DNA of 64,000 bases from Actinomycetes bacterium. GTDB lineage: Bacteria > Bacillota > Sulfobacillia > Sulfobacillales > JAIMBI01. Position 1 is the stretch's first letter; every line of letters starts with the position of its first letter. The stretch spans positions 1-64,000 of the forward strand of contig JAIMBI010000007.1 in NCBI GenBank assembly GCA_023565505.1. The letters run 5' to 3'. The notes beneath the pieces are model-generated. The model was not told the origin of the DNA. It saw only the letters and a program-made list of their open reading frames with translations, and did no database searches. Below, piece by piece: positions 23,205 through 24,989 of the stretch. A program made the position numbers and the translations under genes.

Positions 23205-24788
23205 TCAAACGCCTTCGACGATGCGGGTGACGGCTTGCGACTTGTCGCCGAACCAGGGCGGGATGACCGCGCCGAAACCGCCGGCGGGACCACCCGCGGC
23301 CACCACCAGGAGATCCTCCGGGGCCTTCAGGGCGCGATAGATCCGGTCGCGGTTGGCATCCGACACCAGGCGCCCCTTGCCGACCGCGCGCCACTCCTCG
23401 CGCCGCACCACGGCGTGCTCGTAGACATAGCGGCGGATGTCCGCCTTCTGCCACCCCGCGGCTTGCAGAACGTCCCGGAGCTGTTTCGGGACGACGAGCA
23501 CGTAGGGACCGGGCCAGACCGAATAGGTGAGCATGTTGGCCCGTATCGCCGCGACGAAGGTGTCGAGGATCTCCGCCGGATCGGTGGTCCACTCGTTCAT
23601 GATCTGGTGGGGCGATTCGACGGCCACGACGGTGACGGCCGACCGCCCCGGCGGCACCCCCCGCTCCGTGGCGAGGGGAAGCCAGGAGCTGTCCTCCTCG
23701 TCTTCGGCGAGGCAGAAGGTGAACTTCCCCGGGTGGCCCAGGGTCGAGCGGTCCCACACCCCGGGCACCCCGCCCAGCAGATTCGCGATGATGAGGCGCA
23801 CCGCCCGCCCCACCGTCGCATTGGCGCGGAACCCGTTGGCCATCGCGTTGTGGGTCGCGTTGAAGCCCAGTTGACGGCGGACGGGTCCGTTGACGACGAC
23901 GAGCACGGCGCTACCCCCGGTGCTCGCCGAGCTGCCGTGCAGGTTGAAGGCCGGGTCGGCCATGGCCCGGACGACGGCCAGCACGACCGGCATGTATTCC
24001 GGCCGGCAGCCCGCCATCAGGGCGTTGACGGCGATCTTGGCCACGGTCAGCCGCCGGCGCCGGACCGGTTCCTCCGCCACCACCGCGTCCGGCGCGAGGC
24101 CGGCGGCGTCGAGAAACGGCCGGAGGCGTTCCGGCGTCGGGGGTACCACGGGCAGGCCGTCCGTCCATCCCTGGGCAAACGCCGTCTCGATCGCTGCCCA
24201 AGCGTCCTCGGCCCGCCCGCCGGCGGCCTCCGCGTCCAGCCCGCCGCGACGCGACGACGTCGCCGGCGGGCGGGCACCGCTCCAGACCAGGACCGCTTGG
24301 CGCACCGCCGCTTCGGCCTTCGCCCGGAGTCGAGCCGCGTCGTTGTGGCTGATGGGGTGCTCCACGATCGCGAGCGCGGGCGGCTGCCCGTAGGCGTCCG
24401 CGACCGCCTCGGCGGTGGGGACGAACGGCTCCGTGACCACCGCCACGGCCGGCACACCGCGTTCGGTCAGCTGGATGGCGTCGTGCACACTGCACGACGA
24501 GCAGCTCCCTCAGTCCCCGACCCCCGAGAGAACCGCATCGACCCCCGCCAGGGCGTCGAGGACGGCGGCCGGGGCCGGCCGGCTCATGTCCGGCTTCCGC
24601 ACGGCCACGACCTCCGCCACGCCGTAATCCCGGCGCAGGATCTCCCCCGCCGCGGCCAAGAGCTCCGCTGCGCCCGCCTTTCCGTTGTCCAACAGACCGA
24701 CGCGCCGGCCCCGGAGCGAACCGAGGCCGACGGTCGGCCGCCCGGCCCCGACCTCGGGACCGAGCGTCGGATCCACAAGCGTCACCAT
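23205..24788 (-). CDS. UGSC-family selenoprotein (in-frame TGA as Sec93)
   Basis: Read as one 527-residue protein if the in-frame TGA at 24510-24512 is decoded as selenocysteine. The UGSC domain (about 1-190) has a DPTLGPEVG-like start, LRGRRVGLLDNGKAGAAELL, then DAVLSGVGD-Sec-GSCSSC-SVHDAIQL, the motif that names the UGSC (seleno)protein family. The C-terminal domain (about 200-527) has WTDGLPVVPPTPERL and FNLHGSSASTGGSAVLVVVNGP. Family function is unsettled; the U/C-x-x-C motif suggests redox chemistry. ATG 24788 is preferred over 24794 because GGAGGG then lies 6 nt upstream. Without Sec decoding it would be two truncated fragments, yet both halves are fully family-like and in frame. Confidence 0.85.
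24479..24499 (-). promoter_or_regulatory. Candidate bacterial SECIS hairpin
   Basis: On the minus strand, immediately downstream of the TGA codon (24512-24510), CGTCGTGCA and TGCACGACG form a perfect 9-bp stem around the loop GTG. The loop begins 19 nt after the TGA. A 16-37 nt spacing, a small apical loop and a G among its first two positions are the accepted features of bacterial SECIS elements; all three are met. Confidence 0.75.
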
Positions 24789-24989
24789 CGCCATCCCTCC
24801 CCCCGCCCCGGGCCGGGCCGGGGCGGTTCCCGTCTTCGCCGGTCGGCTTCGCGCCCGCCCCGGCGAAGTCCTCTCCCCGCGGCCGCGGAAGGCCTCGCTG
24901 TACCGCCCGGGCGCACCGATTCTCGGTCCCTGGAAACCGCCCCGGAGGGCTCGGGCCGCCTGACCTGACGTCAGCTCGGCGGCCGCATG

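Follow-up and report, generated by a model that had tools for sequence, protein, structure and literature searches.

A predicted selenoprotein gene in which a UGSC domain related to GrdB is fused to its usual partner domain

The minus strand of the window (the whole stretch of 64,000 nucleotides that was analysed) carries a reading frame that opens at ATG 24788, meets TGA at 24512–24510 and continues in register to 23205. An earlier note, made from the letters of the DNA, had described this frame as one gene for a UGSC-family selenoprotein. Read anew, the frame runs as described and comprises 527 residues, with a single TGA inside it, at residue 93 (GVGD-U-GSCSSC). We favour ATG 24788 over ATG 24794 as the start because a GGAGG sequence lies 7 nt 5′ of it. 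Consensus searches gave no sigma-70 promoters or terminators, and no Rfam family matched in the window at gathering thresholds. The features of the locus are as follows.

23205..24788, minus strand: predicted UGSC–Unk1 fusion selenoprotein gene, 527 codons plus stop; alternative start at ATG 24794
24796..24800, minus strand: ribosome-binding-site-like GGAGG, from the sequence, 7 nt 5′ of ATG 24788
24279..24779, minus strand: UGSC domain (PF24696), predicted alpha/beta, related to the C-terminal part of GrdB; from profile match and model
24510..24512, minus strand: UGA codon, predicted selenocysteine 93, in the U-G-S-C motif followed by S-S-C; from frame, homologues and hairpin
24479..24499, minus strand: SECIS-like hairpin, 9-bp stem (24499–24491 with 24487–24479), GUG loop (24490–24488), 19 nt after the UGA
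23208..24215, minus strand: Unk1 domain, about 335 to 336 aa, without Pfam or NCBIfam match; elsewhere mostly a separate protein adjoining UGSC
23205..23207, minus strand: stop codon at the gene end, likewise TGA, from the sequence

The joined frame matched PF24696 with 155.1 bits over residues 4–170 (curated cut-off, 25), whereas the split halves gave 60 and 73 bits over model positions 2–92 and 94–171, respectively; the NCBIfam model NF041046 scored 124.8 bits, marginally (0.2) short of its cut-off of 125. The TGA thus stands at the U of U-G-S-C within one coherent family protein, as had been claimed, and the further claim that Sec93 joins two apparent genes agrees with Cys-containing fused homologues, which are single continuous frames. 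Two separate genes, the first stopping at the TGA and the second starting from an internal codon such as GTG 24488, would match the plain list of open reading frames (24794–24510 and 24488–23205), and long chance frames do arise in GC-rich DNA. However, GTG 24488 overlaps the hairpin loop and lies within the conserved UGSC domain, either half would be an incomplete PF24696 domain, the Cys-containing fusions are continuous and the selenocysteine machinery is present in the genome (below); we regard two genes as very improbable.

Relatives were collected by scanning a one-genome-per-species collection for the Unk1 domain, which confirmed at least 574; the analysis went on with the best 80 loci. 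A motif search, whose pattern needed U or C and left other residues uncounted, read the codon at the Sec site. It found 76 motif-bearing UGSC genes in 70 of the best 80 loci, with TGA in 69, TGC in 6 and TGT in 1; with the four genes of the window's own genome added, the 80 motif-bearing genes comprised 73 with TGA, 6 with TGC and 1 with TGT. Three UGSC matches without the motif were left out: in L029 a fragment that follows a frameshift, in L032 a divergent copy that contains TGA, and in L092 a fragment at the end of a contig. The seven Cys genes come from Mycobacterium (six) and Rhodococcus (one).

Fusion was checked in 20 regions from the phylum, picked mostly for apparent fusions, together with regions from the own genome and from the same order; one picked phylum region (L193) had no UGSC match. 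In this sample, chosen for apparent fusions, 27 of 31 UGSC matches were in frame with a downstream Unk1 without TAA or TAG. One TGA was present in 16 of these 27 and the other 11 were TGA-free; fusions without Sec, those with Cys among them, are therefore ordinary single genes. Two same-order genomes (G016 and G028) had stops or another frame between UGSC and Unk1, and in L206 a stop separates two annotated genes, which are not fused. The earlier note had set Cys at this codon in homologues against a stop followed by a separate start for the second half; what the homologues carry is Cys or Sec, and among them are single-frame fusions free of any stop.

Other residues also occur at the site. 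Judged by eye, some same-phylum fused relatives have Met (L190–L192) or no Cys (L183), and the plasmid copies of Sporomusa and Vibrio (L204 and L205) have Met. L200, by contrast, has TGA. Given Met or no Cys in fused relatives, Unk1 may have a function independent of the selenol. In the Met-bearing fusions L190–L192, L204 and L205, which span the window's phylum and the Sporomusa and Vibrio plasmids, the Sec/Cys position carries Met and the second Cys is changed to Ser (DMGTS); they are possibly a selenol-free branch of the UGSC family.

The hairpin that follows the UGA agrees with the bacterial model of a SECIS element, which has a small apical loop with G within its first two positions and lies 16–37 nt after the UGA (PMC13188914): in the window the loop is GUG, the distance 19 nt and the stem 9 bp. 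Its minimum free energy is −21.9 kcal/mol (z −2.25), and 6 of 200 shuffles were as stable or more so. For 72 of the 73 TGA genes, the remaining one being too short, we compared the nine fixed pairs with synonymous recoding. On average 8.08 of the 9 pairs formed, against 5.47 under recoding, with p<0.05 in 40 of the 72; the loop was GUN in 71 of the 72, the seventh codon after the UGA was Ser AGT in 70 of the 72, and one stem pair was exchanged, being C-G in 65 genes and G-C in 7. The seven Cys genes formed 3.29 pairs, and none had AGT. Folding energy separates the two sets weakly (mean z −1.44 in the 72 TGA genes versus −0.90 in the 7 Cys genes), the stretch after the terminal TGA is foldable too, and 16 TGA sites in same-order and phylum regions formed only 2–7 of the 9 pairs in the register of the window. 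SelB and tRNA-Sec would decode the UGA at 24512–24510 as Sec93, with the hairpin 19 nt downstream directing the decoding.

The genome is a draft of 3.12 Mb in 49 contigs (97.6% complete, 6.6% estimated contamination). All four genes that the earlier note had named as a check, selA, selB, selC and selD, are in the assembly: tRNA-Sec (selC) scored 74.3 bits with anticodon TCA, a second tRNA-Sec match above the Rfam cut-off being a tRNA-Ser, and SelA scored 490 bits, SelB 357 bits (above its cut-off) and SelD 367 bits. They sit on contigs other than the window's, which, in a draft assembly, counts against decoding. The selD gene (G000:C41:15678-16604, L026) has one in-frame TGA, and selenophosphate synthetase is itself probably a selenoprotein. 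Each of the four UGSC matches in the genome contains exactly one TGA. Elsewhere in the genome (G000:C7:221343; L109, match from 1501), a short protein matches the C-terminal part of PF07355 and then has an in-frame TGA as the U of U-P-V-C; by its sequence it is probably a further GrdB-related selenoprotein. With four UGSC genes, a TGA-bearing SelD and this GrdB-related short protein, Sec use is unexceptional here, and the expectation that it would be notable did not hold, as the genome encodes several likely selenoproteins.

Because one TGA recurs in all four genomic UGSC matches, homologues have Cys at the site and the Cys fusions are uninterrupted, the internal TGA goes beyond chance. A pseudogene or a sequencing error at the TGA might be suspected in a draft of 49 contigs with the contamination estimated above, but the TGA recurs in those four genes and in 69 of 76 homologues in the best 80 loci, and the hairpin pairing is present in TGA genes and missing from the seven Cys genes; the probability of such a defect is negligible. 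From these comparisons we infer with near certainty that the locus is one gene whose UGA is decoded in vivo as Sec93.

The C-terminal half of the protein, Unk1, matched no Pfam model (E up to 1) and no NCBIfam model (E up to 0.1); 79 members scanned singly gave no consistent Pfam family, and Unk1 profiles found no credible sequence relative in the PDB. The earlier description of a long C-terminal domain whose role is unknown stands as to the long domain; the domain is not private to this protein, being the usual partner of UGSC. Of the best 80 loci, 62 have UGSC no more than 250 nt downstream of Unk1, 68 have it at some distance of up to 2.6 kb, and 72 have any match to the 55-row UGSC profile. 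Among the loci lacking UGSC, four end less than 220 nt from the Unk1 match (L038, L069, L088 and L107), and the other four lack it despite room beside Unk1 (L076, L097, L099 and L106), which counts against the partnership. Of the phylum genomes sampled, 20 of 398 had UGSC and 21 of 396 had Unk1; every one of the 20 had both, and the Unk1 pieces in the extra genome (G381) are interrupted by stops. Among annotated plasmids, 24 records contain Unk1. In the six that were inspected, the Unk1-containing gene is always annotated as hypothetical, and in three of the six its neighbour is annotated as a UGSC family (seleno)protein. The own genome has a separate Unk1 directly before UGSC on contig C10 and UGSC–Unk1 fusions on contigs C30 and C13, with another separate Unk1 on C30. 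Cys-type UGSC also adjoins Unk1 on haloarchaeal plasmids (L202 and L206). Elsewhere, several Unk1 genes lie close together: the clusters of L068 (5968–9930), L171 and L173 each include a single UGSC gene, and the L172 stretch has no UGSC gene. Such clusters suggest that hetero-oligomers form or that one selenoprotein serves more than one substrate.

In a FastTree tree built from the Unk1 domains of 112 loci (133 domains, 33 of them in fusions), the window Unk1 fell in a group of 15 with local support of 1.0. The other 14 members comprise 12 with UGSC just downstream and 2 that are alone in the available DNA; the window protein is the sole fusion in the group, so its fusion apparently arose independently of the others. 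Among the 41 genomes of relatives searched, homologues occurred in only three, the own genome included, and in the regions examined the parts are separate in the other two, a distribution that, on sequence searches, suggests patchy or horizontal spread. Altogether, Unk1 is very probably a dedicated partner of UGSC in a two-part enzyme, mostly encoded by a neighbouring gene and here fused apparently independently of other fusions.

The UGSC domain resembles GrdB and PrdB in U-G-(S/T)-C-x-x-C, followed by E..G(I/V)P, T and HP(L/I); the profile comparison was made with GrdB. The GrdB profile was built from 16 of 31 GrdB-type loci, read through the UGA; left out were L109, which is of a different short type, and 14 in which the GrdB frame was not caught. 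HHalign aligned UGSC (55 rows) with GrdB (16 rows) at 95.4% (E 1.6e-8, 84 columns), with Sec on Sec. With the seven motif columns masked, the value was 77.6% (E 1.9e-5), or 83.3% in global mode, compared with 0.5% for a reversed template and 1.2% for the best of 30 column shuffles. Full-length matches to the Pfam GrdB model (PF07355) end at model position 347, with the TGA next. The model apparently ends just before Sec, which may be why the link between UGSC and GrdB is absent from libraries. The match is confined to the part around and after Sec, and UGSC differs in lacking the long N-terminal region of GrdB: the window protein has no PF07355 match before Sec, and a Pfam scan at E 0.001 gave UGSC only. 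The partners differ as well, pyruvoyl GrdE or PrdA for GrdB/PrdB and Unk1 for UGSC. Unk1 as a homologue of GrdE was tried and rejected, at 0.2% against 10 proteins taken as GrdE by their place before grdB (three of them verified with PF09338). GrdE/PrdA (PF09338) and GrdA (PF04723) gave no match in the genome in searches whose controls matched nowhere either. Searched against the PDB by sequence, UGSC gave nothing credible. On these profile comparisons UGSC is related to GrdB, yet we do not file it as a GrdB member, since the N-terminal region is missing, Unk1 is unlike GrdE, and GrdA and GrdE were unfound in those searches, whose controls matched nowhere. Set against GrdB and PrdB, UGSC is found also in Mycobacterium and Rhodococcus, which are aerobes.

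For folding we used an alignment of 47 rows (A3); a larger one of 145 rows (A2) was set aside because its 140 single-domain rows lay outside the UGSC motif column. The full-protein model was confident, with a pLDDT of 88.2 and a pTM of 0.82. In it the UGSC domain is alpha/beta, and the motif opens a helix that comes after a strand. PDB matches of the full model were weak (best E 5.7e-4, TMq about 0.2). Modelled alone, Unk1 reached a pLDDT of 94 and a pTM of 0.93; its top three Foldseek matches (E 8e-5 to 2e-4) were class I fumarate hydratases, followed by 17 cyclic amide hydrolase chains (E 3e-4 to 9e-3). With TM-scores of 0.32 or less throughout, this fold match is unreliable, and we leave Unk1 without an assigned fold.

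Single-query tblastn searches served to count neighbouring genes in the best 80 loci. TctC carboxylate-binding proteins were found in 16, SDR in 14, CaiB CoA-transferases in 12, LarA lactate racemase in 6 and LysR in 5; thioredoxin reductase (trxB) and amidase were rarer (3 each), as were DUF6282 and DctP (1 each). These 80 loci had no PxpA, PxpB, PxpC, RraA, DUF2848 or aconitase X, and none of the Sporomusa FAD oxidoreductase, aldehyde dehydrogenase or class III aminotransferase. Of the six plasmid regions, two have thioredoxin reductase nearby and two have aconitase X with DUF126; CoA transferases occur in three, and TRAP or TTT transporters likewise in three. Haloarchaeal L202 and L206 have CoA transferase genes nearby, together with DUF6282 in L202 and RraA and amidase in L206. 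On C30 of the own genome, amidase, DUF6282, DUF2848 and 5-oxoprolinase A/B/C-type genes lie on the same strand; on C10, the same strand has an MFS transporter and RraA, and 5-oxoprolinase B/C-type genes are encoded on the opposite one. Aldehyde dehydrogenase, aminotransferase and PucR genes are further neighbours in same-order genomes. In L015 (3468–12081), one strand carries an amidase, a separate Unk1, a UGSC–Unk1 fusion, DUF6282, DUF2848 and 5-oxoprolinase A/B/C-type genes, which together make a candidate module for lactam degradation. The window gene itself is flanked by an ABC transporter and a DUF2079 membrane protein, with a histidine kinase also a neighbour and no catabolic neighbour, surroundings that point to no substrate. 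Across the family, the neighbours speak for catabolism of diverse small acids or lactams, none of them being universal.

Sec decoding, the domain architecture, the partnership and the relation to GrdB are supported, all at the level of sequence analysis, and the near-constant partner, the natural fusions and the GrdB relation yield a testable two-component enzyme hypothesis for UGSC. We propose that the GrdB-like alpha/beta UGSC domain would display Sec93 and Cys96 where a helix begins; Sec93 would act as the catalytic nucleophile or reductant, and Unk1 would bind the substrate. The selenolate would attack or reduce the partner-bound substrate as in GrdB/PrdB, with Unk1 replacing the pyruvoyl subunit GrdE/PrdA. 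Cys96, together with reducing equivalents drawn from thioredoxin reductase or some other thiol, would then resolve the selenium adduct or Se–S bond that results; against recycling by thioredoxin reductase, trxB is near the pair in only three of the best 80 loci. The substrates would be small carboxylic acids or lactams handled by catabolic operons, each copy having its own. GrdB-like chemistry of UGSC–Unk1 on such substrates is a tentative proposal, to which we give somewhat under an even chance; the lack of any relation of Unk1 to GrdE counts against it. Confidence in the mechanism is only moderate, mainly because Met-bearing fused relatives suggest a selenol-free role for Unk1.

The same Sec-decoded fusion could work otherwise, with UGSC a thioredoxin-like thiol/selenol oxidoreductase that reduces or protects Unk1, and with Unk1 the sole catalyst, for example hydro-lyase-like or cyclic-amide-hydrolase-like. 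UGSC was described as likely Trx-like in 2008 (PMC2398784), the best fold matches of Unk1 are the hydratases and hydrolases named above, Unk1 is retained where relatives have Met, or lack Cys, at the Sec site, and amidase, 5-oxoprolinase-type, racemase and aconitase X genes lie near some copies. However, those fold matches have TM-scores of 0.32 or less, none of the 50 fold matches listed for the full model is a thioredoxin, and the profile comparison relates UGSC to GrdB; we consider Unk1 as the sole catalyst possible, although rather doubtful. The explanation we prefer as a whole, a Sec-decoded fusion with a dedicated Unk1 partner and GrdB-like chemistry, we put at about even chances.

The family is not new. 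UGSC and a UGSC/Unknown_1 fusion (Figure S1A) were reported in 2008 in the GOS selenoproteome, in which UGSC was among the most abundant marine-metagenome selenoprotein families, with 255 Sec members (PMC2398784), and a 2026 review lists it without function (PMC13188914), in line with the earlier view that the family is known and its chemistry is not. The window protein agrees with that family (PF24696/NF041046) in profile match, U-G-S-C motif, Sec/Cys exchange and SECIS-like element; it differs in carrying Unk1 at its C terminus, whereas UGSC in the best 80 loci is mostly a separate short protein beside Unk1. Like the published fusion, it joins UGSC to a conserved function-unassigned domain; set together by their descriptions, Unknown_1 of PMC2398784 is likely to be Unk1. 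The consulted parts of PMC2398784, PMC13188914, PMC9312934, PMC5029168, PMC9402790 and PMC7435645 state no function, usual partner or GrdB relation for UGSC. Nor did we find a UGSC–GrdB relation in the openly searchable UGSC and GrdB literature, in which PMC5330540 and PMC7539508 were covered by their listings. In the literature so searched, therefore, the family and its fusion to an unknown domain are already known, and the usual Unk1 partnership and the GrdB link were not found.

UGSC and Unk1 may be a class of two-part selenoenzymes for which the literature so searched has no description. In it a GrdB-type selenol domain, trimmed, would work with Unk1 in place of the pyruvoyl subunit in carboxylate or lactam catabolism, across many bacterial phyla, aerobes included, with a Cys form in haloarchaea; we offer this as a conjecture that falls a little short of even odds. 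Unk1 is a widespread family lacking annotation and merits a profile of its own. The Cys-containing single-frame fusions can be expressed without the Sec machinery, and the partner family makes the role of the UGSC enzyme easier to test.
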